NCBI GenBank assembly: GCA_019636755.1
Contig: JAHBWZ010000001.1
Span: forward strand, 372,001-436,000
DNA from: Phycisphaeraceae bacterium
GTDB lineage: Bacteria > Planctomycetota > Phycisphaerae > Phycisphaerales > SM1A02
Direction: 5' to 3'
Length of the DNA stretch: 64,000 bases
Shown: positions 2,595 to 19,709 of the stretch, piece after piece
Position numbering within the stretch: position 1 is the first letter of the stretch
How the letters are laid out: every line of letters starts with the position of its first letter
Notes under the pieces: generated by a model
Databases searched by the model: none
What the model saw: only the letters and a program-made list of their open reading frames with translations
Told to the model about the DNA's origin: nothing
Translations under genes and position numbers: made by a program

Positions 2595-2803
2595 GCGCGC
2601 GGGCCGGAGCCGCGAAGCTGCTCTCTGCGTACCGGGATCTCGTGCTCCGCCTGGACCGCATCCGCCCGGAATGGGACGACTCGGTCCGCCGCGCCTTCGA
2701 CCACGAGTTCATCGAGCCGCTCGAACTCGAGGTCCGGGCGGCGATCGCAGCCATGGAAGCACTCGATCACGTGCTGGAGGATGCGCGACGTGCCTGTGCC
2801 TGA
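2591..2803 (+). CDS. Small helical protein of the WXG100/FtsK locus
   Basis: A 70-residue protein predicted as two amphipathic helices broken near the PEWD turn at residues 26-29. It is not recognised as a family member. It could be a second, short Esx-like partner: a single Trp sits between the two helices, but there is no WXG triplet. Its ATG overlaps the previous stop by 4 nt, and its 3' end overlaps the ATPase frame by up to 23 nt. Such tight translational coupling argues that it is real and made in fixed ratio with its neighbours. Confidence 0.55.
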   Translation: MSARAGAAKLLSAYRDLVLRLDRIRPEWDDSVRRAFDHEFIEPLELEVRAAIAAMEALDHVLEDARRACA

Positions 2804-5800
2804 ACCTCCGGGGTCCGCGCCGCCGGTCCCGTCCGGCTTCGCCGGCGATGCGCTGCGGACGCTCGTCGACCTGGCGCACCTGCGGCGCGAGCGACGCGAG
2901 GTCCCGGCCCGACTGGATGACGAGTCGCGCCGCGCCATCGCCGCCGCGGAGCGCCAGCGCGATGAACAGCGCACCGCCGCGGACGCGGCCTGCCGCGCGC
3001 GCGTGACCGAGGTCACGGCCATGCTGGAGTCGCGCTGCGCGGAGATCCAGGCGGAACACGACACCGCCATGGCACGCATCGAGGCGCAGACGGAGCACAA
3101 GAAGGCCTCCATCCGCGAGCGGGCAGACCAGAACCTGGCACAGGCGCGCACGCGGCTGGACGAGGAGATCTGGGTGGCCGAGTCCGTCCACGAAGGTGAG
3201 GGACAGCGCCTGACGGAGCGTGCCCGCGCCGTGGCCGACGCGGTGGCGCGCGAACGTGATCAGATCGCCGAGGCATGGACCACCGTCCGTGCCCGCCTGG
3301 AGTCGCACGGCCTGGGCCACCTGCTCCGCGAGGCGGATCCGCCGCACGGCGCGCCGGCGCGGGAACCGGATTCTGCGGCGCCGTCCGTGCCCGCCGTGCC
3401 CGAGGCCGCGCTGGGCGACCTGGCCGCGGCGCGGGAGCGCGCCGCCGCGGGCGCGGTGGCGGCGACGCGCCTCCGCAGCGCCCGCATCGCCTCCGGGGCG
3501 GCACCGTGGATCCTGCTCACGTGCCTCGTGGCCGTCGGCGCGGGCGCGGGCGCGGTCCTCGGCCAGCAGGGACTGCGGCCCGCCACGGCCAACCCCGCGC
3601 TGCCGGGCATCATCGGGGCCGTCGTCGGGGCGCTGGCCGGCATCATCCTGCGCCTTGTGACGCGGCGGATGGCCCGGCGAGGGGCGCGGCGCATCGTTGC
3701 ATCGCTTCGCGCCGCCGAGGCGGACGGCGCTCGGCACGGCGCCGCCGCGCTCCGGGCCGCGGAAGACGAGCGGCGGCAGGGGCAGGCCCGGGCCGACCGT
3801 GTCCGCGATGCGGAGATCCGCGCGGCGAAGCAGCGCTGGGAACCGGCGATCGCCAAGGTCATGGAACGACGCGAGGCGCACCTGGTCCGGCTCGACGCCA
3901 TCCTGAATGCCCACGCCGCGGAGGTGCGCGACCAGGCCACGGAGCGCCGCGCGGCCGCGGAGGCCGAGGCAGCGCAGGCGATCGCCGCCGCGGAGGCGGT
4001 GCGCCGGGACGCCGCGGCGCGGCTGGAGGCGGCGTTCGCCGATGCGCAGCAGCGCTGCGATCGGGAGTTCACCGAGCAGCGGACCGCGTTCACGGCGTCG
4101 TGGCGACTTCGACTCGATCGCGCGTCGCAGACGATCGATCGACTGCTGCACGCCGAGCGCACGCGATGGATGTCGTTCGACGATCCGGCGTGGGACGCGT
4201 GGCAGCCGGCGCGGCTGGACGGCGGCACCTTCCGGCTGGGGCGCATCGTCGTCGACTCCGCGGAGATTCCCCGCGGCGATGACGGCCGCCCGGAACTCGG
4301 CGCCGACCTGCCCGCATTCGAGGCGCTGCCGTTCGGTCTCGACCTCGCCGGCCCCGCGTCCCTGCTCCTGGAGCATGACGGTGACGGCCGCGAGAATGCG
4401 CTCGCCCTGCTGCACACGGCGATGCTCCGGCTCATCACGCTCCTGCCGCCGGGAACGGCCCGCTTCACGATCATCGATCCCGTGGGTCTCGGGCGCACGT
4501 TCGCGGGCTTCATGCACCTTGCCGACTTCGACGAGCGCCTGGTCACGAGCCGCATCTGGTCGGAGCCGCGCCACCTCGAGCAGCGCCTCGCCGACCTGAC
4601 GGAGCACATGGAGCACGTCATCCAGAAGTACCTGCGCAACGAGTTCGAGTCCATCGAGGCGTACAACGAACAGGCCGGCGAGATCGCCGAGCCCTACCGC
4701 TTCCTCGTCATCGCGGACTTTCCCGCGGGCTTCACGGAATCCGCCGCCAAGCGGCTCGCCAGCGTTGTCTCGAGCGGTGCGCGCTGCGGCGTCCACACGC
4801 TCTGCGCGTGGGACCGCCGCACCCACCCGCCCGCAGGGGTGGACCTGGAACTCATGCGCTCACGCAGCCTGCGGATCCTCTTCGAGCAGGGCCGCACGCG
4901 ACTCGCGGCGGATCCGCCCGGCCGCGGCCGCGTGGAGATCGACACGCCGCCGGACGATGCGCTGGTCACGCGCACGCTCCAGATCGTCGGCGCCGCCGCG
5001 CGCGACGCGGCGCGCGTCGAGGTCCCGTTCAGCGCGGTCGCACCGGCGCCGGACGCCGTGTGGTCACGGCGCTGCGACACCGTGCTCCGCGTCCCGCTGG
5101 GCCGCGCCGGCGCGAGCAAGCTCCAGGAACTGGAAATCGGCATCGGCACCAGCCAGCACGCGCTCCTGGCCGGCAAGACCGGATCGGGAAAGTCGACCCT
5201 GCTGCACGTCCTGGTCACGAACATCGCGCTGTGGTATCCGCCCGACGAGGTGGAGCTGTACCTGGTGGACTTCAAGAAGGGGGTCGAGTTCAAGACATAC
5301 GCAACGCACCGCCTGCCCCACGCGCGGGCGGTGGCGGTCGAGAGCGATCGCGAGTTCGGCGTCAGCGTGCTCCAGCGCGTGGATGCGGTCCTGCGCGAGC
5401 GCGGCGATCTCTTCCGCGCCGCGGGCGTGCAGGACCTGCCGTCCTGGCGCCGGCTGAACCCGGGAAGCCCGATGCCGCGCGTCCTGCTGGTCATCGACGA
5501 GTTCCAGGAGATGTTCGTCGAGGACGACCGCCTGGCGCAGGAGGCATCGCTGGTCCTCGACCGGATCGTCCGCCAGGGTCGCGCCTTCGGCATCCACGTG
5601 CTCCTGGGCTCGCAGACGCTCGGCGGCGCCTACACGCTGGCCCGGAGCACCATCGGCCAGATCCAGGTCCGCATCGCGCTGCAGTGCAGCGAGGCGGACT
5701 CGTACCTCATCCTGAGCGAGGACAACGCCGCGGCGCGCCTGCTGGGCCGGCCCGGCGAGGCCATCTACAACGACGCGGGCGGTCGCATCGAGGGCAACAG

Positions 5801-6782
5801 TCCGTTCCAGATCGTCTGGCTGCCGGACAGTGAGCGGGAGACCTGCCTGCGCACGGTCGAGGCGCGCGCCACCGCGGCCGGCTGGCGCCCCTCGGCGCCG
5901 ATGATCGTCTTCGAGGGCAGCGCCCCCGCGGACCTCGCCACGAACCACCTGCTCCGCGAGACCGCGCAGAGTGCCCCGCCCGCACCGGACATGCCGGTGC
6001 GCACCTGGATCGGCGAAGCGATCGCCATCAAGGGGCCGACCGAGGTCACCTTCCGGCCGCAGAGCGGCGCGAACCTCCTACTCGTCGGTCAGCGTGACGA
6101 GGCCGCGACGGCGATCATCGTGTCCATGCTGGCCTCCGTCGCGGCACGCCGCGGACACGCGGCCTCGGTCAACGGCGAGACGGCCGCGGCCGGTCCGACG
6201 CTCATCCTGATCGACGGCACGCCCGCCGATGCCGCGCTGGCCGGATGCCTGGGATCCGCGGCCGGCGCGCTGCGCCTGGCGCCGCGGATGGTCGGCTTCC
6301 GCGACATCGAGGAGGCCATGCGGGACCTGGGCGCCGAACTCGATCGTCGGCTCGAGGCGACCTCGCCGTCGCCTCCGCTCCTGCTCTTCATCCACGGCCT
6401 CCAGCGCTTCCGCCAGCTCCGCCAGAGCGAGGACTACTCGTTCTCGATGTCCGGCGACAGCGCCCCGGCCGCAGACCGCATCCTTGCCAGGATGATCCGC
6501 GAAGGCCCCGTCGTGCGCATGCACACGATTCTCTGGTGCGATACGCCGGCGAACCTGCTGCGCTTCCTCGATCGCCAGACCCTGCGCGAGTTCGCCCTGC
6601 GCGTCCTGTTCCAGATGGGCGCCGCCGACTCCACCACGCTCATCGACTCCCCCGCCGCGTCCCTGCTGGGCCTGCACCGCGCCCTCCTGCACAATGAGGA
6701 AGAGGGCATCACGGAGAAGTTCCGGCCCTACGCGCTGCCTGAACCCGGGATGCTGGCACACCTGCTCCAGGGACGCGGCTGA
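2781..6782 (+). CDS. Membrane-anchored FtsK/SpoIIIE-type ATPase with coiled coils (EssC/EccC-like)
   Basis: A 1333-residue protein. Order: long coiled coil (about residues 30-210), two transmembrane helices (about 240-262 and 272-292), a second Ala/Arg/Glu coiled coil (about 300-450), a linker, then an FtsK/SpoIIIE motor. Walker A is GKTGSGKS at 798-805 and Walker B VLLVIDEF at 901-908. A further C-terminal domain looks like a second, degenerate ATPase: LLLVGQRDEAATA where a P-loop would be and LLLFIHGLQRF where Walker B would be. Tandem motors, often with degenerate later copies, are typical of EssC/EccC, the type VII secretion motor. GGAGG abuts the ATG at 2781 but lies 9 nt before an in-frame GTG at 2790, which may be the true start. 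Long coiled coils on both sides of the membrane segments are unlike EssC or classical FtsK. Confidence 0.8.
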   Translation: MRDVPVPEPPGSAPPVPSGFAGDALRTLVDLAHLRRERREVPARLDDESRRAIAAAERQRDEQRTAADAACRARVTEVTAMLESRCAEIQAEHDTAMARIEAQTEHKKASIRERADQNLAQARTRLDEEIWVAESVHEGEGQRLTERARAVADAVARERDQIAEAWTTVRARLESHGLGHLLREADPPHGAPAREPDSAAPSVPAVPEAALGDLAAARERAAAGAVAATRLRSARIASGAAPWILLTCLVAVGAGAGAVLGQQGLRPATANPALPGIIGAVVGALAGIILRLVTRRMARRGARRIVASLRAAEADGARHGAAALRAAEDERRQGQARADRVRDAEIRAAKQRWEPAIAKVMERREAHLVRLDAILNAHAAEVRDQATERRAAAEAEAAQAIAAAEAVRRDAAARLEAAFADAQQRCDREFTEQRTAFTASWRLRLDRASQTIDRLLHAERTRWMSFDDPAWDAWQPARLDGGTFRLGRIVVDSAEIPRGDDGRPELGADLPAFEALPFGLDLAGPASLLLEHDGDGRENALALLHTAMLRLITLLPPGTARFTIIDPVGLGRTFAGFMHLADFDERLVTSRIWSEPRHLEQRLADLTEHMEHVIQKYLRNEFESIEAYNEQAGEIAEPYRFLVIADFPAGFTESAAKRLASVVSSGARCGVHTLCAWDRRTHPPAGVDLELMRSRSLRILFEQGRTRLAADPPGRGRVEIDTPPDDALVTRTLQIVGAAARDAARVEVPFSAVAPAPDAVWSRRCDTVLRVPLGRAGASKLQELEIGIGTSQHALLAGKTGSGKSTLLHVLVTNIALWYPPDEVELYLVDFKKGVEFKTYATHRLPHARAVAVESDREFGVSVLQRVDAVLRERGDLFRAAGVQDLPSWRRLNPGSPMPRVLLVIDEFQEMFVEDDRLAQEASLVLDRIVRQGRAFGIHVLLGSQTLGGAYTLARSTIGQIQVRIALQCSEADSYLILSEDNAAARLLGRPGEAIYNDAGGRIEGNSPFQIVWLPDSERETCLRTVEARATAAGWRPSAPMIVFEGSAPADLATNHLLRETAQSAPPAPDMPVRTWIGEAIAIKGPTEVTFRPQSGANLLLVGQRDEAATAIIVSMLASVAARRGHAASVNGETAAAGPTLILIDGTPADAALAGCLGSAAGALRLAPRMVGFRDIEEAMRDLGAELDRRLEATSPSPPLLLFIHGLQRFRQLRQSEDYSFSMSGDSAPAADRILARMIREGPVVRMHTILWCDTPANLLRFLDRQTLREFALRVLFQMGAADSTTLIDSPAASLLGLHRALLHNEEEGITEKFRPYALPEPGMLAHLLQGRG

Positions 6783-6872
6783 GCCGGGACGCGCGTCGCA
6801 TCCCGCGTGCGCACGTCGCGGCGCGCCGCATGCATCCGCCGCGGACATCACCGGCGCGCTGCCGCGCCTCCG

Positions 6873-8879
6873 TCAGACGCGCACGCGGCGCTGCCAGAGC
6901 CACCACTCGAGCATCAGCACGAGCAGCGCGAAGACGACCGCGTACGGCCAGAGCGAGGTGTAGATGAGCGCCGCGCCGCTGTCGCCGCCGACCTGGCTGC
7001 CGCCGATCTCCACGATCTCCGCCGCCTGTGTCCGGGACTCCGATTCGTCGGAGAGATTGACCGCGAAGGCGCGCTGCTGTCGGCCGGGGGCATCCGGAAC
7101 GGTCCACTCCAGCAGGTGCAGGCCGGCCTGCCGCGCCGGTCCCCAGGACAGGAGCGCCGGATCGCGGACCTCCAGGCGCTGGCGATGGCCGTCGGGCTCG
7201 ATGATGTCGATGTCGGTCGCGGCGGCAGGCAGGCGCGTCGCGATCGCGTCACCGGGCGCCAGCGGCCGGTCAGTCACGCCGCTTCCGCTGTGACCGAGGT
7301 AGTCGACCGCGTTGAAGATGAACGACACGAAACTCCGGAGGATCGGCCACGTCGACGCCGCCGGCTCGAACGCCACGTGCACCACGCGGGTCGTCCCCCG
7401 CGACATGAGCACGATGAGCGGGCCTCGTCCGCCCTCGGCCAGCACCTCCACCGCATCCGCCGCGCGGATCGGCCGTGTCCGGCTGATCTCCAGCGGATCG
7501 AAGTCCACGTAGCGCAGGAGAGGATGGCGCCGGTTCGCCGAGAGAACCAGGTCAGGCCCGGGCTCCCCATCCTCGCGCAGCCCCGTGCCGCCCGGCGGCG
7601 TGCCGAACGAGAGATACCGGCCCGGCGGCAGTTCCTCGATCGTCACGTTGTCGAGCACGATCACGTCGAAGCGCTCCAGCGCCGTGCCGGCGGCCGGCGC
7701 GGCAGGATCCGCGATCGCCGCGAAGCGCTCCGGCGTGAGGAGGATCAGTTCCTGGAGCGGCAGCCCTTCGAGCACGGGGCGCACCAGCGATCGCGGGGGT
7801 CCGACCAGCGCCACCGACAGCGGCCGGGGCGGCGGAAGCACGACGACCTGCCGGTTGTCGGCCGCGAGGGCATCGGGCGTGACGACCGCGACCTCGATCA
7901 CCGCACCGCGGGTTTCCTCGAACGGCGTGAACACGACCGACGCGCGCCCCGGCACGAGCCCCCCGGTTGCACCGTCGGTGACCGCGGGCGGCAGCGCCAC
8001 CGGGCGCAGGGCGAGCGCCGCGCCGTCCACGGAGAGCTGGACATCCACGTCGCGCGGAGACGCCGACCAGCTGATGATCGACGCGAAGATCTCCACCTGG
8101 GTCGGGCGATCCTGCGATCGCTCCACCGCGAGCGAAAGCAGCCCCGCGTTGACGGACTCCGTCTCTCCGATGCGGTGATAGACCAGCGTCTCTCCGCGGA
8201 GGACCTCGCCGCCCAGGTCTTCGATCCTTCCATCGCTGAACAGTTCCCACGCGGCCGGATCATCCACCGGACGGTCGGAGTCCGGATCCACGTTCGTCGA
8301 GTAGGCGCGGGCAAGCCGGAACGCATCCGCGATCCGGCTGACGCCGTCCGTCGGGCGGATCCGGTCCACCGCCTCCAGCAGTTCCGCGCGCGACCGCGTG
8401 AACCGGCTGACCACCTCGGCGCGGTCGGAGAACGCCACGATCATCACCTCGGCATCGCTTCCGCGCATGAGCCTGGCACCGGTGATCGTCCCGATCCGGT
8501 CACGGATCCGGCGCTTCGCCTCGTCCAGTCGCGTCAGGCCGCCGGGCGCGTCGGCCACGCGCATCGATGCGGAGCAGTCCACGAAGAACACCACGCGGGC
8601 GCGGTCGACCGCGCCGCCGCGGATGCGCGGCTGCGCGACCGCCGCCGCGATCGCGAGCAGCGCGAGCACCTGGAGCAGGAGGAGTACGCTCGGTCGGAGG
8701 CGCTGAAACGGCGCATTCGCCTGGAGGTCCTCGACCGCCCGGGTCCAGAGCAGCGTCGATGCGATCCGCGCCGGTCGCCGCCGCAGCCGCAGGACATAGA
8801 GCAGGAGCAGCGGCGGAATGAGTGCCGCCGCCAGCAGCACGCCGGCGAGGGGCGTGAGAAAGGGAGACGCGCTGATCAC
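6873..8879 (-). CDS. BatA-like membrane protein with von Willebrand factor A domain
   Basis: 668 residues. Two N-terminal transmembrane helices (about 8-30 and 64-82) match the BatA N-terminal domain of aerotolerance-type proteins. A vWA domain follows, with MIDAS motif DCSAS at 101-105, and then a long extracytoplasmic part. The protein ends in a C-terminal transmembrane helix and a basic tail (about 645-668). It starts with GTG at 8879, overlapping the DUF58 stop (GTGA). It is the last gene of the seven-gene leftward operon. In known moxR-DUF58-vWA clusters these proteins act together with the MoxR ATPase in envelope or metalloenzyme maturation; the client here is unknown. The frame is open upstream of 8879, but that part lies inside the DUF58 gene. 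Confidence 0.8.
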   Translation of the reverse strand: MISASPFLTPLAGVLLAAALIPPLLLLYVLRLRRRPARIASTLLWTRAVEDLQANAPFQRLRPSVLLLLQVLALLAIAAAVAQPRIRGGAVDRARVVFFVDCSASMRVADAPGGLTRLDEAKRRIRDRIGTITGARLMRGSDAEVMIVAFSDRAEVVSRFTRSRAELLEAVDRIRPTDGVSRIADAFRLARAYSTNVDPDSDRPVDDPAAWELFSDGRIEDLGGEVLRGETLVYHRIGETESVNAGLLSLAVERSQDRPTQVEIFASIISWSASPRDVDVQLSVDGAALALRPVALPPAVTDGATGGLVPGRASVVFTPFEETRGAVIEVAVVTPDALAADNRQVVVLPPPRPLSVALVGPPRSLVRPVLEGLPLQELILLTPERFAAIADPAAPAAGTALERFDVIVLDNVTIEELPPGRYLSFGTPPGGTGLREDGEPGPDLVLSANRRHPLLRYVDFDPLEISRTRPIRAADAVEVLAEGGRGPLIVLMSRGTTRVVHVAFEPAASTWPILRSFVSFIFNAVDYLGHSGSGVTDRPLAPGDAIATRLPAAATDIDIIEPDGHRQRLEVRDPALLSWGPARQAGLHLLEWTVPDAPGRQQRAFAVNLSDESESRTQAAEIVEIGGSQVGGDSGAALIYTSLWPYAVVFALLVLMLEWWLWQRRVRV

Positions 8880-9805
8880 TTGAGCAGGCCCCGGCGGCGC
8901 AGGTGTTCCATCAGCAGCGTGTCCAGGTTCGTCCTCGTGTCCGCGGTGACCAGCATCATGCCGCGGCGGACGCAGTACTCGCGGAGCCGCGCGCACCACG
9001 CGTCCAGGTTCTCGCGGTAGCGCCGCAGGAGCGCCGCAGTCACCGTCACCTCCGTGACGCTGCCGTCCTCCAGGTCCGTCAGCCGGAGATCGCCGGTCAG
9101 CCCGTGCCGCCCGGGGTCGAGTTCCTCCGGTGAGAGCACCTGGATGCAGAACGTGTCGAAGCCCCCGCCGGCCAGGTACCGCAGTCCCTTCTCGTAGCCC
9201 TCCTTGAACAGGAAGTCGGAGAGGATCACCATCACCCCCCGCCCCTGCCGCTTGAGCGCGATGCTGCGCATCGCCTCCGTGAAGTCCGCCGGACCGGACG
9301 GCTCCAGCCCGAGCAGCCACGCCCCCAGTTCCCGTGTCCGGCGTCGCCCGCGCAGCGCGGGAAGCGGCCGGACCTGTCCGCCGCCGAAGGCCCACGCGGA
9401 GACACGGTTCAGGTTGACCAGGCCGATGTAGCCCAGCGCCATCGCCAGTCGCCGCGCGAAGTCGAACTTCGACGGGTTGCCCCAGTGCATCGACGCGCTC
9501 GCGTCGACGGCGAGCACGAGCGAGAGGTCCTCCTCCTCCTGGAACATCTTCAGGAAGAGCCGGTCCAGCCGGGCATAGACGTTCCAGTCGATGAAACGGA
9601 GATCGTCGCCGTGCGTGTAGTGCCGGTAGTCGGCGAACTCCACCGAGATCCCGCGCCTGCGGCTGCGGCGCTCGCCCTGGAGCTTCCCGGCGAAGATCTT
9701 GCGACTGGTCACGTCCAGCTGATCGAGCTTCGCCAGCAGGTCGCCGCCGATCAGTTCATCGATACGCCTGGGTGCCGGCGCGGTGGGAACTCCGAACTCC
9801 GCCAT
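8876..9805 (-). CDS. DUF58 domain protein
   Basis: 309 residues. It holds the DUF58 core DYRHYTHGDDLRFIDWNVYARL at about residues 59-80 and then a vWA-like fold with intact MIDAS residues DASAS at 101-105. There are no membrane helices, so it is probably cytoplasmic and works as the MoxR partner. It starts 3 nt after the moxR stop and overlaps the BatA-like gene by 4 nt. DUF58 proteins normally sit between moxR and bat genes, exactly as here. Confidence 0.88.
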   Translation of the reverse strand: MAEFGVPTAPAPRRIDELIGGDLLAKLDQLDVTSRKIFAGKLQGERRSRRRGISVEFADYRHYTHGDDLRFIDWNVYARLDRLFLKMFQEEEDLSLVLAVDASASMHWGNPSKFDFARRLAMALGYIGLVNLNRVSAWAFGGGQVRPLPALRGRRRTRELGAWLLGLEPSGPADFTEAMRSIALKRQGRGVMVILSDFLFKEGYEKGLRYLAGGGFDTFCIQVLSPEELDPGRHGLTGDLRLTDLEDGSVTEVTVTAALLRRYRENLDAWCARLREYCVRRGMMLVTADTRTNLDTLLMEHLRRRGLLK

Positions 9806-9808
9806 GGT

Positions 9809-10871
<1,063 letters not shown>

Positions 10872-10885
<14 letters not shown>

Positions 10886-13868
10886 CGCCGCCCTCTCCGC
10901 GCGCCCGGCGCTTTGCCGCCAGCAGCCGCGACGTGTGTCCTTCGTCATCGGCCGGCGGAGACGCCCCCGGCGCCGGTGCGCGATCGCCCGCGCCGCGCCT
11001 CGTCGCGTCCGGCACCACCGCGGGCCCCGCCGTGGTCTCGACCGGTCGGACCTGGCGCCGCTCCTCCTCCGTGGCTTCGAACCGGATCGCCGCCTCCTCC
11101 CGGGATGGCGCCCGGACCCTGGCCTCCGTCACGTCCTTCGCGCGCTTCCATGCCGAGAGCGTTCCGGTGGTCTGCTCGCCACGGCGCCCCGTCAGCCGGC
11201 GCAGCAGCGACGCGACCGCGCCGGGTTCGATCGCGAGGCGCCGGACCGCGACATCCAGCAGCAGCAGCCCCGCGGCGATGATGGCGACGAGATCCCAGAC
11301 CGGCCTGGGGATGCGCGGCAGGGCGAGCAGCACCGCGTCGAAGATGCCCGCCTGGCGCGGGATCTCCAGGTCGATGATGCGCCCGCCGGTCCGCTCCGCG
11401 AGGTCGATGAGCGCCGCGGCGTTGTGCCTGATCGTGCGGAACTCCGGCGGATACGAAACCGACACCGCCGCCTGGACCGTGCCGGCCTCGCGGGCGTCGC
11501 CCGCGCCGGACTCGTGCAGCACGTTCACGAGATACGCGCCCGCCTCGCGCGTCCGGAAGCGTCCCAGGTACCGCCCGGGCCCCACCTGCTGCAGGGGCAG
11601 CGTCTCGACCGACGCATCGGGCCGCACGACGACGGCGGTGGAACGCAGGAAGTTCAGCGGCGCCGCGTCTTCTCCGACCGCCTGGACCTCCACATAGGCA
11701 TCGTCGCCGGCGATCCTGGTCACGACCTCCACGTTCGTCCGCCCGCTGGGGCGCATTACCCAGCGGATCGCCTGCTGCCAGAAGGTCTCGAAGCGCGGCC
11801 ACGCGAGCCATGCCGCCCCCCACAGGCGCGTCGCGTCCGATGTCCACGCGATGGCGCGCCCGACGCCGAAGTTCCAGTGCGCGAAGAGCGGGTCCTGCGC
11901 CTCGGACGTCGGGATCACGATGGGCGTCTGCGCGAGCCCGCGCCGCTGCACGGTGAGAACATACCCGTCGATGGGCGGCACGGAACTGAATCCGGCGGTC
12001 GGCCCCGGCAGCGAACTGACGACCGCCGGCGTCCACGTGTCGCCGTCCTGGATCAGCGACCGGGAGACGATCTGCGCCTCCTTGATGAAGATCTGGGGGA
12101 GGTCGTTCGGATTCTTCACGTCGTAGAACGTGCCGCCCGTCACGTCGGCGACCGCCTCCATCCGGCTCCGATCCATCGCCGTCCCGTGCCCGCCGACCAT
12201 CACGGTGGTGACGGTGACGCGGTTCGTGACGTAGGCGCGCAGCAGTTCCTCGCTGGGCGGCGACGGGTCACCGTCCGAGATGATGATCGCATGCCGCTGC
12301 GCCGCGGGCGCCCGCATGAGTCCGTCCAGCGCCAGCTGCATCGACGGCATGAAGCTCGGCATGTCGCCCACGGTCATCGTCTGCGTCGCCCGAAGCGCCG
12401 CCTGCTTGTCGCCGACCTGCTGCATCGGGAACGCCCAGCTGGCGCCCTGGAGCATGTCGCCGGGGTTGTTCCAGTTGAACTCCACGATGCCCACGTAGTC
12501 CAGCCTGCTCAGCGCCTCGATGGCCGCCCGCGCCACCTGCTGGCCCCAGTAATTGCCCTGGGGCATCTCGCACGAGTGCATGATGAGCGCGAGCGCGCCG
12601 GACGGCAGCTGTCGTGTCGCCGGCGGGTTGAGTTCCACCGGGAGTGCCCGGGCGGTCTGCGAATCGATCCAGCCCCCCGCGCCGAAGGAGGTGTCTCCGC
12701 CCAGCATGACGAGACCGCCGCCGAGATCGTGCACGTACGCATACAGCGCCCGATCCTGCTCCGCGTCAAATGCGTACCGGGGCACGTTCGCGAGGACCAC
12801 GGCGTCGTAGCCGCTCAGCGCGAGGATCCCCTGGCGCCACTGGTCCGGCGCCATGATGTCCACGACGATGTTGCCCGATCGCAGCGCCGCAGCCAGGAAC
12901 TGCGTCTGGAGCGCGCTGTCCGCCATGACCAGGATCCGGCCCTCGCCGGCGACGAACGTGACCGCATCACCCACGTTGTTCTGGGGAATGACGTCGAACG
13001 CGGGATCGTCCGGCTCGAACCGCACGCGGAATCGCTGCGGTCCCCGGGCGTTCATGGTGAACTGCCGCTCGAAGACGGAGACGCCCGCGTCGAGTTCGAC
13101 CGCCATGCCGCCCGGACCGTCGCCGAGGTCGATCTCGACGTCATTCATCTCGAACCGGATCCGCCCGGTGGCCGGCGCGATGCTGCGCAGCACCGCGCGC
13201 AGCCGGATGGTCTGCCCGATCCGTGCCCTGACCGGCGCAACGAGCTGCTCGACCAGGACCTCGCGGTCGTAGTCATAGGAGAGGATCGCGACGTCCACCG
13301 GCACGCCGTTGGCGCGGGCGAGATCGCCCGCGGTCCGGATCGAGCCCATCGTCTCGTTCCCGTCCGAGACCAGGAGAATCCGGTTCGCCGTGTCGTTGGG
13401 CATGATCGCCATCGCCAGCGAGATGCCTTCTTCGAGGTTCGTCGCCAGCGTATCCGCCGGTTCGGCCGCCACCTCCACCTGCGAGTGCACGTCCGGCAGC
13501 GCCGCGATCTCGGCCGTGCGCCCGACGGTGATGAGCGCGAGCCGGTCCTCGGGGCGCGGGCGCTCCGCCGTCGCCTCGCGCAGCGCGCCCGCGGCGCTGC
13601 GGCGGAGCGCGAGCGGAACCGACTGGCTTCGATCGAGCACGACGGTGACCGTCAGCCCTTCACCCTCCCGGACGAGGAAGGGCCGTGCGAGGGACAGCGT
13701 CAGCGCCGTGATCACGATGGCGCGGAGAATCGCCGCGGTGACCAGGCGTGCCCGCGAGAGCGATCCGCGCGCCCGCCACGCGATCAGGACCACCGGCACC
13801 AGCAGCAGCAGGAGCAGCAGCCAGCGAGGCTCGTCGAACCGGACCGAGATGACTGCGAGTCCCGACAT
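10872..13868 (-). CDS. Large vWA / GATase-like membrane protein
   Basis: 998 residues. Two N-terminal transmembrane helices are followed by a vWA-like domain with MIDAS-type DRSQS. Then comes a class I glutamine amidotransferase-like fold without an obvious catalytic Cys-His pair (GYDAVVLANVP...GGGLVMLGGD). A second vWA-like half contains IIISDGDPSPPSEE. Near the C-terminus there is a transmembrane segment (about 870-895) and a charged cytoplasmic tail. This layout is common in planctomycete MoxR clusters. GTG at 13871 just before the ATG is an alternative start. The stop lies inside the moxR start region, so the two are translationally coupled. It probably forms the extracytoplasmic part of the MoxR system. 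Confidence 0.8.
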
Positions 13869-13895
13869 CACGTGCCCTTCGGCAGACTTCCCCGC

Positions 13896-16649
13896 TCAGA
13901 ACGCCTGCAGCGCCTGCACGCGGTGATTGCCCGAGTCAAGAACGAAGATGCGATCACCGGCCGCCGCGATCGACCATGGATACTGGCATCGTCCGGGCTC
14001 CGAGCCCAGGCCGCCACGCGCCCCCCGGAGGCGAAGCGTCACCGGGTCGATGCGCTGCACCCGGCTGCCCCCGAACTCGCTCACGTAGATGCGGCCGTCG
14101 TCCAGGACGCAGAGTCCGTAAGGAAACGCCAGTCGCCGCGCGCCCGCCACCGCGTCCGATCCGGGATCCGGGAGCCTCCAGGATGGCGACGCCTCGGCGC
14201 CGATGGCGTCGCCTCCTGGATCGCGCTCGGGCGGGTCGTGCTCGACCGGCTCGCGCCGACGGCGGGCGGCCGGTGCGCGGTCCGGATCCTCCGGAATCAC
14301 CGCGAGCGCGGCACCGGTCCGGGGATCGATGATGACGATCCGGTGATTGCACGCGTCGGCAACATACAGCCGCGCGCCGTCCGGCGAGAAGGCGATCGCC
14401 TGCGGGCGGTCGAATGCACCGTCGCCCCGTCCGTGCCGGCCGAAGGCCCGCAGCGCCACGCCCTCACGCGTGAAGACCTGGATGCGATCGTTGCCCCCGT
14501 ACTCCGCGACGAAGATGGTTCCGTCCGGCGCGACGACGGCGTGCGTCGGGTAGATGAACGCGCCGGGCTCCTCGCCGTAGCGCCCGAACCGGCGGAGTTC
14601 CTCGCCGTCCCGGGTGAACTCGATGACCCGGTGGTAGTGCGTATCGGCGACCAGCAGCGTTCCCTCCGGCGTCACCGAGAGGCCGAGCGGCTTGCCCCAC
14701 GCGGACTCGGGCATGCGCCACTGGCGCTCAGGTATCCCGTCGAGCGTGAACCGCTGTATCCGCGCCGACTTGTCCACGATGAAGATCGCGCCCCCCGCGA
14801 CGTCGACGGCGATGCCGCGCGGATAGGAGAACTGGCCGGGCGAGAGCCCCGGTCGTCCGAACATGGACTCGGTCCGCAGCGGCGGCGTGTCCGCGGACCG
14901 GCTGCATCCTGTCATGGGCAGGAGCAGGAGCGGCGCCAGGAGGACCGCGCCGGCGCGGGTGACCGCGGGGTGCAGGACCGGCGCGCGCCCTGTGGTCCGC
15001 GCCAGCAGGAACGCGGCGAAGAGCGTGATGCAGAGCGCGAGCGCGCCGAGCACGCTGCACGCGGCCAGGATCTCCTCGGAGCGCTGGTAGTGCATCGCGT
15101 CGAGCAGTCGCAGCGCCAGGGGACTGGACCCGGGCGGATGCACCCGCGCGGTGGCCGGGACCTCGCTGAGCGCCATCGCGAACCCGATGAGCCCCGCCCC
15201 CGCCGCACCGGCGATGAACTGCGGCCGGGCCGACGCCAGCAGCGGGCCCAGTCGACGGGCACCGTCCAGGCGGCGCAGATCGGCGACCGCGGGCGCTTCC
15301 GCCATTGCCGCCCACCGCCCCAGCAGAACGCCCGCGATGCCACCGCGGGCCACCGCCGCGGCAACCAGGATGGCGGGTGTCATCGCGACCGCCCCCAGCG
15401 CGGCGCCGATGGTGCCGGCGCCGGCCGCATCGTCCGCCATTGCGGTTCCGGGCAGCAGCGGCCGCCGATATCCCGCGTCCAGCAGCGCACCGACCGTCGT
15501 CCCCGGAATCGCCGCCAGGATGCAGAACAGAAGCGTGGTGCATGCCGCGAGGAGGCGGACGCCGCGCGACCGGTCATGGGCCGCGGCGACCATGCCCGCC
15601 GCGAGCGCCGCGCCGCATCCCGCCGCCGCAAGCGCGACCGCGAGCGACTCGACCAGGCTCCCGCCGTAGAGCGAGAGGAACCGCATGACCCCGGCGGGTC
15701 CGCCCGACCGCGCCAGGACAAGCGCCGCGGGCACGACCCCTGTCACCACCACGATGCACGCGACCGCGCCCTTCATGCGCCGTCCCGTCGGCCCCGCCGC
15801 GTGAGCGGCGGGCCCCGCGTGACGGCGCGGTGCACCGACGAGTCTCCAGGCCGCCACGGCCCCGAGCACGGTGACGCCCACGGCGGGCAGCGAGGCGCGC
15901 AGCACCGAGCCCGGATCGGCGCCGAGCGCCGAGATCGCCCGCAGTTCATTGCCGACCGAGAAGACCTGGGCCAGGTCGAAACTCGCGGTCTGCGTGAAGA
16001 CCAGCAGGAAGACCACGAGCATGCCGAGCGCGAGACCGCGCGCATCCTCCGACCACGCCGCGCGCAGTCGCCGCGGCCAGCGCGCACCGTCGAGGCGCAG
16101 GAGTTCCGCCGTGGGCGACGGAGCGGTCCGGCCCGCGGCGACGCACCACGCGGCGATCGGCCACGCCCAGGCCGCGAGCCCGAGCACGAGCGTGGCGCCG
16201 CGGGCCTCGACAAGGCGTCTCGCCTCGACGGCCAGCGAGAAGAACCAGGATCCGGGCGGCCACGACTGCCACCACGCGTAGAAGACGACGTAGGCAGGAA
16301 GCGCCATCGGGAGGAGGATCAGCAGGTGGCGCAGGATCATCCGCGCCGATCGGCGCGGCGCCGACGGCGCGCCGTCGCTTGCCGGGGCGTCTCCACCGGC
16401 GCCGAGCAGCCGACCGGGCAGCCATCCGAGCGCCGCGGCCAGGACCGCCACCGCACCGGCCCACGCGGCGGTCTCGAGGACCAGTTGCCACATCGGCCGG
16501 ATGCCCGGGATGTCCATGGCGGCGGTCCCGGATGCGCTCGCGGTGCCGAGCACGACGGCGCCGCCCGCGACGATCGGCCACGCGCCCACGATGAGCAGCA
16601 GTGCCACCGCAGGGAGAAGCAGCGCTCTGGAGGAAACCGACCGGATCAT
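13896..16649 (-). CDS. Fe3+-type ABC transporter permease fused to NHL-repeat propeller
   Basis: 917 residues in one uninterrupted frame. Residues 1-560 are a two-module binding-protein-dependent permease with about 12 membrane segments, of the FbpB/ThiP type; each half carries an EAA-like loop with RLDGARW / RLDGARR. At about 565-582 there is a hydrophobic stretch ending LLLLPMTGCS, which looks like a lipoprotein signal (Cys582). Residues 590-917 form NHL-like repeats (YPRGIAVD, FIYPTHAVVAPDGTIFVAEYGGNDRIQVF, LYVADACNHRIV and so on). No ATG, GTG or TTG start lies in the linker just before the lipobox. The ATG overlaps the binding-protein stop (ATGA). This is either a genuine fusion or a former permease-lipoprotein gene pair whose stop was lost. 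Confidence 0.75.
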   Translation of the reverse strand: MIRSVSSRALLLPAVALLLIVGAWPIVAGGAVVLGTASASGTAAMDIPGIRPMWQLVLETAAWAGAVAVLAAALGWLPGRLLGAGGDAPASDGAPSAPRRSARMILRHLLILLPMALPAYVVFYAWWQSWPPGSWFFSLAVEARRLVEARGATLVLGLAAWAWPIAAWCVAAGRTAPSPTAELLRLDGARWPRRLRAAWSEDARGLALGMLVVFLLVFTQTASFDLAQVFSVGNELRAISALGADPGSVLRASLPAVGVTVLGAVAAWRLVGAPRRHAGPAAHAAGPTGRRMKGAVACIVVVTGVVPAALVLARSGGPAGVMRFLSLYGGSLVESLAVALAAAGCGAALAAGMVAAAHDRSRGVRLLAACTTLLFCILAAIPGTTVGALLDAGYRRPLLPGTAMADDAAGAGTIGAALGAVAMTPAILVAAAVARGGIAGVLLGRWAAMAEAPAVADLRRLDGARRLGPLLASARPQFIAGAAGAGLIGFAMALSEVPATARVHPPGSSPLALRLLDAMHYQRSEEILAACSVLGALALCITLFAAFLLARTTGRAPVLHPAVTRAGAVLLAPLLLLPMTGCSRSADTPPLRTESMFGRPGLSPGQFSYPRGIAVDVAGGAIFIVDKSARIQRFTLDGIPERQWRMPESAWGKPLGLSVTPEGTLLVADTHYHRVIEFTRDGEELRRFGRYGEEPGAFIYPTHAVVAPDGTIFVAEYGGNDRIQVFTREGVALRAFGRHGRGDGAFDRPQAIAFSPDGARLYVADACNHRIVIIDPRTGAALAVIPEDPDRAPAARRRREPVEHDPPERDPGGDAIGAEASPSWRLPDPGSDAVAGARRLAFPYGLCVLDDGRIYVSEFGGSRVQRIDPVTLRLRGARGGLGSEPGRCQYPWSIAAAGDRIFVLDSGNHRVQALQAF

Positions 16650-17758
16650 CTCGCGCCGCCGGCGAGCTGTTCCATGGCCATGCGGATCGCATCCGTCCGC
16701 TGGCCGGCGGCGCGGCGGTAGTCGATCTCGAGGCGATCCCCGGGAACGTACGGCACGAGTTCCGCGGGGACGGGCGCGAGCACCGGGACGTTCCGCGACG
16801 ACGTCCCGGCGATGCACAACTCGACCTCCGGGGACAGCAGGAAGTCGGCGAGCAGGCGCGCCGCGTCGGGATTCGGCCCGCCGGCAACGACCGCCACCGT
16901 GGAGGGGATCACCAGTGTCCCGGTCCCGGGACCGTCCTCGCCCGAGTGCGCGGGAAAGACCACGCCGAGATCGTGTCCCCGATCCTGCATGACCCAGATG
17001 TCATCGCCGTCGGTCAGACCGAGATCGACCTCGCCGTCGAGCACGGCCCGGACGACACCCGCATTCCCGCTCGGAAGCAGGCGGATCCGGTTCTCCGCGA
17101 GGCCGGAGAGCCACGCGCCGTAGTACCCCGGTCCCGCGTGCCGGTCCCAGTACGCCTTCATGGCACCGAGGTGTCCGCCCGTCGTGCCGAACCGGGGATC
17201 CGCCATGGCCAGCCGGCCGCGATAGCGCGACTGCGCGAGCATCATCCAGGTCGTCGGGATCTCGTCGGCGGCGACGCGCTGCGGCGCGTACACGATCGCG
17301 CGCGGTCGCCCCGCGAACCCGTGCCATCGACGATCCGGATCGCGCAGCCCGGACGGCACCGCGTCCGACGCCGCGCTCACATGCGGCGCAAGCAGACCGT
17401 CATCCGCCAGCGCGATCGTCTGGAAGACTTCGCCCGACCAGAAGACATCCGCGACGGGTCGCGTTCGCTCCGCGCGGATCCGCTCCACGAGCCCGGTCGT
17501 CTTGACCGCCTCCGAGTCCCCCACGACGCGCACGCGGATCTCCGGGTGCGCCCGGTTGAACAGTCGGATCACATCGCGGATCACGTAGTCATCGATCGAG
17601 GCGTACAGCACCACGTCCGCACGGTCGGACGGCCGGCAGGATGCCGCCGCGGACACGGCGATGACCGCGAACGCCACCAGGCGCACGATCCGCGCCGGCG
17701 AGCGCCGCCCGGGTCGCCCCGCGTCGCGCGCGCCCGGCCGCGCACGCTCACTCCGCAT
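16646..17758 (-). CDS. Periplasmic Fe3+-type substrate-binding lipoprotein (FbpA/AfuA-like)
   Basis: 370 residues. The signal ends in the lipobox AVSAAASC (Cys41). The mature part, VVLYASIDDYVIRDVIRLFNRAHPEIRV, is the typical start of class-1 ferric/thiamine-type extracellular binding proteins, followed by VFWSGE, YRGRLAMADPRFGTTGGH and NPDAARLLADFLLS family signatures. The start ATG at 17758 has a strong GGAGGGGGAG ribosome site; the frame is open upstream, but that part lies inside the preceding gene. It overlaps the preceding gene by 11 nt and the permease by 4 nt. No ABC ATPase gene lies nearby, so the importer would need one from elsewhere. The ligand is not certain from sequence. Confidence 0.85.
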   Translation of the reverse strand: MRSERARPGARDAGRPGRRSPARIVRLVAFAVIAVSAAASCRPSDRADVVLYASIDDYVIRDVIRLFNRAHPEIRVRVVGDSEAVKTTGLVERIRAERTRPVADVFWSGEVFQTIALADDGLLAPHVSAASDAVPSGLRDPDRRWHGFAGRPRAIVYAPQRVAADEIPTTWMMLAQSRYRGRLAMADPRFGTTGGHLGAMKAYWDRHAGPGYYGAWLSGLAENRIRLLPSGNAGVVRAVLDGEVDLGLTDGDDIWVMQDRGHDLGVVFPAHSGEDGPGTGTLVIPSTVAVVAGGPNPDAARLLADFLLSPEVELCIAGTSSRNVPVLAPVPAELVPYVPGDRLEIDYRRAAGQRTDAIRMAMEQLAGGAR

Positions 17759-19454
17759 CGGGCTTCTCCCCCTCCGCGGGCGTCTCGGCGAGCGCGCGGA
17801 CGCGCGCCTCGAGATCACCGAAGTAGTGACGCTGCGCGTCGCGGTACCGGCGCGGGAGCGCCTCTTCGCCGACGGCCTCGTCGACGCCCGCCGCTTCCGC
17901 GCGGATGACCTCGACCAGCCTCGCGCGCGACTCGCCCCGGATCGGAACCCCCTCGATCAGCGTGCGGGCGATGATGCCGCCTTCGACCACCGGCGCGTGT
18001 TCCTTGCGCAGGCGACGACGGGTCGGCGTCGGCGCGAGTTCGGCGCGGCCGCCCTCCCCGATCCCCCCCTCGCCCATCCCGCCACCCGGCTGAAGCTGCT
18101 CCCGCCACTGGTCGAGCGCCCGCTGCAGTCCGAGTCCCTGGCCCATGCGCTGACCGGCGCCCTGGCACATGCCCTGCATCGCCTCGGCCTGCCGCAGCAG
18201 CTGCTCGAGCTGTTCGAGTTCGGAGAGCTGGTCGGAGGCCTGCTGCAGGCCTTCGCCCATCATGCCGTCTCCGGCCTGCGCCATCTGGCGGAGTGCGTCA
18301 CCGAGTGACTGGCACATGCTGCAGGCCTCCTGCAGCGCGTCCGCCGCCTGCTGGAGCTGCTGCTTCTGCTCGTCCGTCAACCCTTCGGCCTGCCTGATCG
18401 CCTCCCGCATCGCCTCCGGATCCCGGGCAAGGCCGGGATCCAGGCCCGCATCGCGGAGCATGCGCTCCATCGCCCCCTGGTTCTGTGCCGCCCGCTCCAG
18501 CTGTTCCGCGATGCGCGCCGCGGCATCGGCAACGGCCCGCTGCATCGCGGGGTCGGACGCGTCGGCGGCCGCCTTCGCCATGCGCTCCAGTGCTTCACGC
18601 GCGGCCGCGAAGTCATTCATCCGCAGCGCTTCCGCAAGCTCCCGCCCGGGGCCGCTCTCCGGCGCGACGGAGCGAAGCATGTTCTCCAGCTGCTCCATGA
18701 CCCTGGCCTGGTCCCCGCGGAGGATCTGGTCCAGGCGCTCGGAGAGCGCGGTCATCTGCCGGACGCCGTCGCGGCGGATGTCTTCCGGTCGGTCGCTCGG
18801 CCGCCCGGAGATCGAATCGCCGGTCTCCAGCCCGGCCAGGAGTTCCGCGAGTTCCCGGTTGAGTTCAGGCATCTTCTCCAGTTCCTGGACCACCGCGCGG
18901 ACCGTGGTGCTGACCTCGGTGCGCGCGGCCGCGAGCACCTCCCGGTCGGGCTCCGGTGCGTCGATGATCGAGAACTGCGGAAGCAGGAGACAGAGCCCGC
19001 CGAGCAGCCCGAGCCCCACCCCGCCGAGCGCCCGCGGCCCCGGATCGATCGGCGCCGCCTGCGGAATCCGCGCGCGGAGCGCGGGATCCCGGGCCGCCTT
19101 GAGGCCGTCGTTCACCGCCGCCTGCGCGAAGGGCGTATCGATCGACCTGAACGCCACCGCATTGGAGAGGCGTTCCCGCAGGTCGAGACGCTCGTCAAGA
19201 AGGGCGGCGACGGCAAGGTCGCTGTGATGGGCCCGCCGGGCATACAGGATGACCGCCCCCCCCAGAAAGAGGGCAACGAGAAGCGGCAGCGCCCACACCC
19301 AGGGCACGATCGGCGCCGGGCCGATCCGGTCCGCGATGGCCAGGAGGAGCACGGCCCCGCCGGCCGGCCAGGCGGCTGCGGCGAGTGCATCGATCGCGAT
19401 CCGGCTCCGAAGCCGGCGTCTCGCGAGCGTGATCAGGCGTCTCATCTCGTCCAT
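17748..19454 (-). CDS. Membrane protein with long Gln/Met-rich coiled coil (DUF4175-like)
   Basis: 568 residues. Two N-terminal membrane helices (about 20-70) and one near residue 160 precede a long helical part (about 190-480) rich in Glu, Gln, Met and Ala, with many AEQLERAAQNQ / QQLQQAADALQ heptads. A Gly-rich hinge and a charged C-terminal domain follow. It resembles the DUF4175-like coiled-coil proteins often seen beside moxR/bat genes in planctomycetes, but the family call is tentative. The start ATG (19454) has AAGGAG 10 nt upstream. It is the first gene of the leftward seven-gene operon, so the operon promoter should lie within 19455-19709, a divergent intergenic region. Confidence 0.65.
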   Translation of the reverse strand: MDEMRRLITLARRRLRSRIAIDALAAAAWPAGGAVLLLAIADRIGPAPIVPWVWALPLLVALFLGGAVILYARRAHHSDLAVAALLDERLDLRERLSNAVAFRSIDTPFAQAAVNDGLKAARDPALRARIPQAAPIDPGPRALGGVGLGLLGGLCLLLPQFSIIDAPEPDREVLAAARTEVSTTVRAVVQELEKMPELNRELAELLAGLETGDSISGRPSDRPEDIRRDGVRQMTALSERLDQILRGDQARVMEQLENMLRSVAPESGPGRELAEALRMNDFAAAREALERMAKAAADASDPAMQRAVADAAARIAEQLERAAQNQGAMERMLRDAGLDPGLARDPEAMREAIRQAEGLTDEQKQQLQQAADALQEACSMCQSLGDALRQMAQAGDGMMGEGLQQASDQLSELEQLEQLLRQAEAMQGMCQGAGQRMGQGLGLQRALDQWREQLQPGGGMGEGGIGEGGRAELAPTPTRRRLRKEHAPVVEGGIIARTLIEGVPIRGESRARLVEVIRAEAAGVDEAVGEEALPRRYRDAQRHYFGDLEARVRALAETPAEGEKPDAE

Positions 19455-19709
19455 GGATCGGATGCTCCTTGTCCACCCGTGGGTATCGGCACGCCGCCGG
19501 TGCCCGGCGAATCGGTGGCCGCCCGACGGCCCGGCCGCCGCGGGTCTCCCGCGCGCGGCGCGAGGGGATAGTACGATCTGCGTTCGGCGCCTGAGCGGAT
19601 GAAGTTGACCGCGATCGTCACGTCGCCGGCGTTCCCGGCCGATGCTCCCTCCGACCGCCATCGCCGCATCGCCCGGCACTGCCGCTCACGTCCCCGGAGA
19701 TCCTCCACC

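Follow-up and report, generated by a model that had tools for sequence, protein, structure and literature searches.

Membrane polyproteins that are processed by signal peptidases are known from the cytochrome b/c1 proteins; the FbcH cytochrome b/c1 polyprotein of Bradyrhizobium is cut by signal peptidase I, and its relatives carry the two parts as separate genes. Covalent fusions of a permease with a receptor are also known among ABC importers (e.g., OpuA and GlnPQ). In MoxR-vWA-beta-propeller ternary systems, a propeller occurs together with MoxR and a vWA protein (Kaur et al. 2020, PMC7159879). Here we describe a locus in a 64,000-nucleotide stretch of a Phycisphaeraceae genome (contig JAHBWZ010000001.1, positions 372,001 to 436,000; referred to as the window) in which a permease, a lipoprotein signal, and an NHL propeller share one gene. 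The gene encodes a true fusion, maintained in evolution, between an FbpB-like permease and the precursor of a lipoprotein, and its product is, in our view, quite likely a polyprotein that LspA would cut to free a lipid-anchored propeller.

A permease, a lipoprotein signal, and an NHL propeller in a single frame

The fused gene (Table 1) is a single open frame of 917 codons plus a stop on the minus strand, running from the ATG at 16649 to the stop at 13898-13896, and its first codon and the stop codon of the preceding solute-binding protein (SBP) gene overlap (ATGA). A first-pass annotation of this DNA had reported one frame of 917 codons with about 12 membrane segments, a lipobox at Cys582, and NHL-like repeats after it, leaving the strand unstated; the frame is real, and all three parts were recovered. 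A plus-strand reading of 13896-16649 gives a translation that differs from the described protein and was rejected.

An AlphaFold2 model built from 62 sequences (mean pLDDT, 86.1; pTM, 0.87) places about 12 helices in residues 5 to 552, followed by a lower-confidence loop, a separate helix (residues 561 to 579), a low-confidence stretch (residues 582 to 584), and a propeller from about residue 590. In Foldseek, the permease part matched Thermus thermophilus FbpB (9j4r; TMt, 0.72), and a 62-row sequence profile matched 9j4r over most of the permease (E, 1.3e-21). No solved structure was matched by phmmer with the permease part alone; only the 62-row profile gave a match. The twelve-helix, two-half fold of FbpB-type permeases is thus present according to the profile, the model, and Foldseek. 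The propeller, a six-bladed NHL fold in the model, matched the six-bladed NHL domain 6d69 in Foldseek (TMt, 0.87) and 6xg7 in VIA-align (Z, 40.3; 276 residues; 2.1 Å), and a Pfam scan of the window protein returned NHL repeats (110.7 bits) and other propeller families only.

Table 1. Features of the fused gene and its neighbors in the window
Feature	Position	Strand	Basis
Fused gene for a 917-aa protein (FbpB-like permease, lipoprotein signal inside the chain, NHL propeller), stop included	13896..16649	-	frame, homologs, AlphaFold2 model
Permease part (residues 1-552), two halves with about 12 transmembrane helices in total	14994..16649	-	AlphaFold2 model, FbpB 9j4r profile match, Foldseek
First EAA-like coupling loop (residues 179-201), which retains LDGA and has lost I-x-LP	16047..16115	-	alignment, model
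Second EAA-like coupling loop (residues 453-473), which retains LDGA and has lost I-x-LP	15231..15293	-	alignment, model
Internal lipoprotein signal, residues 561-582: Arg565, 16 uncharged residues, MTGC	14904..14969	-	pattern, alignment
Cys582 codon in the lipobox MTGC (residues 579-582), predicted lipidation/cleavage site	14906-14904	-	sequence
Six-bladed NHL propeller, residues 590-917	13899..14882	-	Pfam NHL 110.7 bits, model, fold matches
Low-confidence charged insertion in the propeller, residues ~786-836	14142..14294	-	pLDDT <50 at 791-835
Upstream SBP gene, SBP_bac_6/SBP_bac_1 type, own lipobox-like Cys61, ATGA overlap with the fused gene	16646..17818	-	
Upstream conserved membrane/coiled-coil protein, neighbor cluster c2, provisional start	17748..19679	-	no Pfam/NCBIfam match; conserved neighbor
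Downstream vWA + GATase1-like domain protein, most constant propeller neighbor	10872..13871	-	
MoxR-type AAA+ ATPase, same cluster	9809..10948	-	AAA_3 204.7 bits
DUF58 protein, same cluster	8876..9805	-	
BatA-type vWA protein, same cluster, provisional start	6873..9080	-	

The same fusion is common among homologs, a search for which had been proposed in the first-pass annotation, and it recurs well beyond what chance would produce. The first homolog search yielded 66 single-frame loci, including that of the window, or 62 distinct loci when near-identical ones were counted once; after more loci of the class were added, the distinct single-frame fusions numbered 93 (window included). The junction cysteine is present in all 93 and is preceded by Gly in 84, Ser in 5, and Ala in 4. 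The first charged residue upstream of this cysteine is always positive (Arg in 85 fusions and Lys in 8), the uncharged run between them is 12 to 24 residues long, and the 15-residue segment that has this charged residue at its end carries a net charge of +2 to +6. As a control, we took uncharged runs of at least 14 residues from the permease portions of these fusions; 26 of the 1,072 runs had [AGS]C near their C-terminal end. Within residues 528 to 597 of the 62-row alignment, only G581 (60/62) and C582 (62/62) are at least 85% conserved, and C582 is likewise invariant in a second alignment; in the locus surveys the lipobox was picked out as [GASP]C or [AGS]C close to where it was expected, a rule on which neither alignment depends.

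The features of a lipoprotein signal (i.e., a positive n-region, a hydrophobic h-region, and a small residue before an invariant cysteine) are all present at the junction. Their location is atypical for a lipoprotein, since they follow about 12 helices (residues 561 to 582) instead of forming the N terminus of the precursor, as they do in the separate-gene relatives. A strict lipobox pattern (PROSITE PS00013) was matched by 44 of the 62 fusions, and a relaxed one by 60. The window lipobox has Pro at position -4 and fails the strict pattern; Pro occupies position -2 in 14 of the 93 fusions. The source genome encodes both LspA (one match) and Lgt (two matches).

Two-gene relatives and fusions with an ABC ATPase

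With near-identical loci counted once, the 187 loci collected represent 173 distinct ones, comprising 93 fused loci, 34 in which the two genes are adjacent, 6 in which they lie apart, and 40 with a propeller and no permease match, the last group including paralogs. An [AGS]C lipobox occurs in all 93 fused loci, 31 of the 34 adjacent loci (the propellers of L078, L087, and L155 have no such cysteine), all 6 loci with the genes apart, and 29 of the 40 propeller-only loci. Two loci of the window's own family represent the separated states. In L105, the permease closes with RLIRR and a stop that overlaps the start codon of the lipoprotein (ATGA), exactly at the position of the junction; in L104, about 4 kb with opposite-strand open reading frames separates the permease from the lipoprotein. 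The lipobox is kept in both.

On an unrooted propeller tree of 163 rows, obtained from a quick search, 6 changes between the fused and adjacent states are needed, compared with a mean of 29 and a minimum of 23 in 200 shuffled data sets; for this count, L065 and L073 were scored as fused and L112, L164, L093, and L094 were dropped. Changes between fused and separate states number 10 to 13, depending on doubtful rows. Among these rows, L065, which a contig end cuts, and L073, whose frame is broken upstream, fell into the "apart" class under the scoring rule though in both the end of the permease reads into the propeller; L112 begins at a contig end, which leaves its fused or separate state undecided; and L181 (scored "nhl_only") and L182 (scored "apart") are ATPase fusions. 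The tree leaves out L002 to L006, L075, L100 to L103, L114, and L116 (paralogs or gene-less loci), as well as rows shorter than 130 residues and hence L105. A single origin of the fusion had fitted a 91-row tree with 5 changes, read as one gain and four losses; this scenario was dropped after class-wide loci were added, which included many touching two-gene relatives. The fusions L184 to L189 and L191 to L193 are nested among two-gene relatives in other families and keep the cysteine and the small residue before it. The 6 fused/adjacent and 10 to 13 fused/separate changes indicate that fusion and fission recur.

A second fusion partner was found in family f6, another family of the window's taxonomic order, whose cluster consists of SBP, permease, ABC ATPase, propeller, and vWA protein. 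The ATPase and the propeller form one unbroken frame in seven genomes of this family (G280, G162, G347, G197, G342, G335, and G382); G363 has an eighth such fusion, interrupted only inside the propeller, and in three others (G322, G228, and G388), the ATPase and the propeller are separate frames. Pfam scans of five of the unbroken fusions gave ABC_tran at 75 to 90 bits and NHL repeats at 55 to 71 bits. A lipobox lies at the ATPase-propeller join in all eight loci, following a positively charged stretch. This one lipoprotein precursor has thus acquired two unrelated fusion partners that end in the cytoplasm, and both kinds of fusion have kept the cutting signal. On balance, we consider that in Phycisphaerae-type planctomycetes a lipoprotein precursor has repeatedly been fused to, and split from, an upstream ABC gene for a permease or an ATPase, that every fusion examined retains the internal lipobox, and that LspA would thus be the enzyme that processes the polyprotein.

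Processing of the fused protein and alternative explanations

If the junction works as a lipoprotein signal, the fused protein would be made as one chain, with helices 1 to 12 of the permease inserting co-translationally and the C terminus of helix 12 ending in the cytoplasm. The Arg-containing loop would then serve as the n-region of a signal peptide and the helix at residues 561 to 579 as its h-region, and the propeller would be exported. Lgt would lipidate Cys582, and LspA would subsequently cut before it. The predicted products of a single translation are, at a ratio of 1:1, a permease to which the spent signal helix remains attached and an NHL propeller of 336 residues with a lipid anchor. 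The released propeller would most likely act at the outer face of the membrane, together with the product of the neighboring vWA/GATase-like gene and the MoxR-DUF58-BatA set. The SBP-permease module is linked to these genes but has been lost in many relatives.

The first-pass annotation had left two outcomes side by side, namely, release of a lipid-anchored propeller from a polyprotein and retention of the propeller on the permease as a built-in sensor or binding part. The former is supported by the cysteine in 93 of 93 fusions, 31 of 34 adjacent loci, and 8 of 8 ATPase fusions and by the LspA and Lgt genes of the source genome. The strongest argument for cleavage is that a small residue and a cysteine have been kept in all fusions examined, though an uncut tether would need neither. 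As in polyproteins known to be processed by signal peptidases, a polytopic protein and an exported protein are joined in a single frame through a signal peptide, and relatives encode them as separate genes. The points that speak against a polyprotein are the strict-pattern matches in only 44 of 62 fusions, the missing cysteine in 3 of 34 adjacent propellers, and the potential start codons 10 to 45 codons upstream of the cysteine in 59 of 62 fusions. LspA is not known, from structures or other data, to take substrates that are extended by 12 helices or by an ATPase.

A separate issue, compatible with cleavage by LspA, is whether the permease of the window's family still transports or whether it is a degenerate scaffold or SBP receptor, with the propeller-vWA module as the only active part; both readings can hold together, and we regard degeneration as possible but doubtful. 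Two tblastn queries with ABC ATPases matched none of 105 permease-fused loci, 25 of which exceed 12 kb, and detected no cognate ABC ATPase gene beside the permease in the window. The EAA loops in the window's family keep LDGA and lose I-x-LP. Pfam BPD_transp_1 is absent from the window protein at an E value of 0.001 and from L036 at an E value of 1, and in L056 it reaches 21.4 bits, below the cutoff of 26.4. Degeneration is countered by the canonical EAA loops in rows from Sedimentisphaerales, by the ABC ATPase in the same cluster in family f6, and by L115 (genome G011), a member of the window's family with an ABC_tran gene about 3 kb from the permease. A blanket statement that no ABC ATPase lies near the permease was accordingly abandoned; it holds for the permease-fused loci only. 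A TOBE_2-type ABC ATPase on contig C18 could also serve in trans. The source genome has 49 ABC_tran matches and two TOBE_2 matches, and the TOBE_2 ATPase on C18 lies between the parB and pntB genes, on a contig that has no BPD_transp_1 match.

Among the readings that compete with cleavage, the best surviving is an uncleaved fusion, in which a 13th helix would tether the propeller to the permease as a built-in sensor or docking part and Cys582 would perhaps be lipidated and left uncut. This arrangement would agree with the continuous frame in 93 distinct homologs, with the SBP gene, which precedes the fused gene in 35 of the 37 loci that were testable and would supply a ligand source, and with the permease-receptor fusions of OpuA and GlnPQ. 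However, it leaves unexplained the small residue before the cysteine in 93 of 93 fusions, a residue that LspA requires; the propeller persists in many relatives that have no permease (with a vWA neighbor in 18 of 31 testable loci), and the same signal is kept where the partner is a cytoplasmic ABC ATPase. We therefore consider a permanently tethered propeller improbable.

An independent lipoprotein could alternatively be produced alongside the fusion from an internal translation start. In-frame ATG, GTG, or TTG codons occur 10 to 45 codons before the cysteine in 59 of the 62 fusions (ATG in 40), and GTG and TTG are presumably frequent in the hydrophobic stretches of GC-rich genes. However, 3 of the 62 fusions, that of the window included, have none of these codons in that interval, and 22 have no ATG there; the positions of the candidate codons differ among relatives, and SD-like sites are rare. 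In the ATPase fusion L198, the only candidate in this interval is a TTG 14 codons upstream, within the hydrophobic stretch. The window frame contains CTG but no ATG, GTG, or TTG between codons -48 and -4 relative to the cysteine; one CTG, 54 codons upstream, has an SD-like site. The in-frame candidates nearest Cys582 are ATG579, 3 codons upstream and useless for a signal peptide, and GTG533, which lies 49 codons upstream inside helix 12, and neither is preceded by an SD-like site. The earlier remark that the ATG of MTGC is the sole start immediately before the lipobox therefore holds, and the independent lipoprotein that was named as a possible refutation finds no support in the window frame. 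An internal start is unlikely in the window; some relatives may have one, but to an independent lipoprotein made in this way besides the fusion we give little credence.

Finally, the joining of two genes by a sequencing error (i.e., a lost stop codon or a frameshift) can practically be dismissed: 34 adjacent two-gene relatives with touching or overlapping ends do exist, as the first-pass annotation had envisaged, but the error that it coupled with them does not stand against 93 distinct fusions, large clades that are almost wholly fused, and 62 fused rows that align through the junction.

Gene neighborhood and comparison with known systems

The Phycisphaerae gene order is a membrane protein with no family match, the SBP, the permease-propeller, the vWA/GATase-like protein, MoxR, the DUF58 protein, and a BatA-like protein. 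Among testable loci, the gene directly downstream of the propeller encodes a vWA protein in 77 of 87 where permease and propeller are fused, in 28 of 32 where their genes are adjacent, and in 5 of 6 where they lie apart; for propeller-only loci the figure is 18 of 31. The vWA gene is thus the most constant partner of the propeller. An SBP gene is located upstream in 35 of the 37 testable fused loci. The window SBP resembles Fe3+ SBPs, and TDxDD is invariant (27/27 rows) where the aligned Fe3+ SBPs from the PDB show tyrosines; iron as the ligand is unsupported because of this replacement. For MoxR in the window, PF20030 gives 45.4 bits (cutoff, 27), and AAA_3 fits far better (204.7 bits).

If the fused protein is processed as proposed, lipoprotein signals need not be N-terminal, and a signal helix attached to a large polytopic protein or to a cytoplasmic ATPase would be a substrate for both Lgt and LspA. 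This would bear on signal peptide recognition, on lipoprotein prediction programs, which examine N termini, and on how planctomycete "permease" and "ATPase" genes are annotated. The fused, touching, and split homologs, some of them within one family, represent a natural test series. The finding also highlights a conserved cluster of an SBP, a permease, a propeller lipoprotein, two vWA proteins, MoxR, and DUF58, for which our search returned no published description.

The MoxR-vWA-beta-propeller ternary systems, conflict systems with the propeller as third component, resemble this cluster in their combination of proteins (PMC7159879). The window MoxR exceeds the PF20030 cutoff but fits AAA_3 far better, and the cluster may or may not be the same system. 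The words "NHL" and "permease" are absent from the main text of that article, and the passages considered describe no such gene cluster. The propeller shares the six-bladed NHL fold with Thin, the TRIM71 NHL domain, and the extracellular domain of PknD; unlike these, it belongs to a lipoprotein, is encoded in a bacterial vWA/MoxR cluster, and is fused to a permease. The FbpB permease of the Thermus thermophilus FbpBC system (9j4r) has the same permease fold, and the SBP encoded next to the fused gene resembles Fe3+ SBPs. In contrast to that system, the present protein has a C-terminal lipoprotein, the permease-fused loci gave no ATPase match, and the SBP carries TDxDD in place of tyrosines. 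A search of open-access papers gave no precedent for an internal lipobox or a lipoprotein-type polyprotein; membrane polyproteins processed by signal peptidases are known, and the lipoprotein-signal version is, as far as we have checked, new. A close parallel is FbcH, in which an internal signal peptide likewise links a polytopic membrane protein with an exported one and which likewise has separate-gene relatives. FbcH is cut by signal peptidase I, whereas the lipobox described here predicts that LspA cuts and that the exported protein is anchored by a lipid; an ABC ATPase can also take the place of the permease as fusion partner.

Junctions in separate-gene relatives

In ten loci (L134 to L139, L141, L149, L168, and L169), just one stop codon stands between the permease frame and the propeller frame, which are in phase, and thus a single point mutation could fuse or split the pair. 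Three propellers encoded next to, but separately from, the permease (L078, L087, and L155) lack the lipobox Cys; an uncleaved helix at the N-terminus appears to serve as their anchor. Locus L067, on a contig titled Chitinophaga pinensis, is near-identical to the Phycisphaera-labelled L042 and L049; the contig is probably from a mislabelled MAG.

ATPase-lipoprotein fusions and candidate ATPases

In f6, another family of the window's order, the NHL lipoprotein is joined in frame to an ABC ATPase, with an internal lipobox between them (L194, L195, L196, L200, L202, L203, and L205). Unlike these fusions, the two are separate genes in genome G322 (L197). The I-x-LP part of the EAA coupling loops of the permease is lost in the window's family, and the loops of the Sedimentisphaerales rows are canonical. 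A TOBE_2-type ABC ATPase gene flanked by parB and pntB lies on C18, a contig of the window's own genome with no BPD_transp_1 match, and its product is a candidate trans-acting ATPase. In G011, a genome of the same family, an ABC_tran gene lies ~3 kb from the permease gene; the permease and propeller are both at contig ends.

Coordinates of the features discussed
Sequence	Position	Strand	Feature
Window	15231-15293	-	EAA coupling loop
Window	16047-16115	-	EAA coupling loop
Window	16646-17818	-	SBP
Window	17748-19679	-	Membrane/coiled-coil protein
L114 (C18, ~247.9-249.3 kb)	5915-7315		TOBE_2-type ABC ATPase
L115 (G011)	4958-5749	-	ABC_tran gene
L194 (f6)	2667-4493		ABC ATPase-NHL lipoprotein fusion
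L195 (f6)	3042-4868		ABC ATPase-NHL lipoprotein fusion
L196 (f6)	6212-8035		ABC ATPase-NHL lipoprotein fusion

Upstream solute-binding protein

The gene adjoining that of the solute-binding protein (SBP) encodes a conserved membrane/coiled-coil protein, for which searches of Pfam and NCBIfam returned no match. The SBP itself resembles Fe3+ SBPs and shares an invariant TDxDD motif with 26 homologues. Judging from its sequence, the ligand of this SBP type is probably not ferric iron: the Fe3+ SBPs in the alignment carry tyrosines where the window SBP and its homologues have TDxDD.
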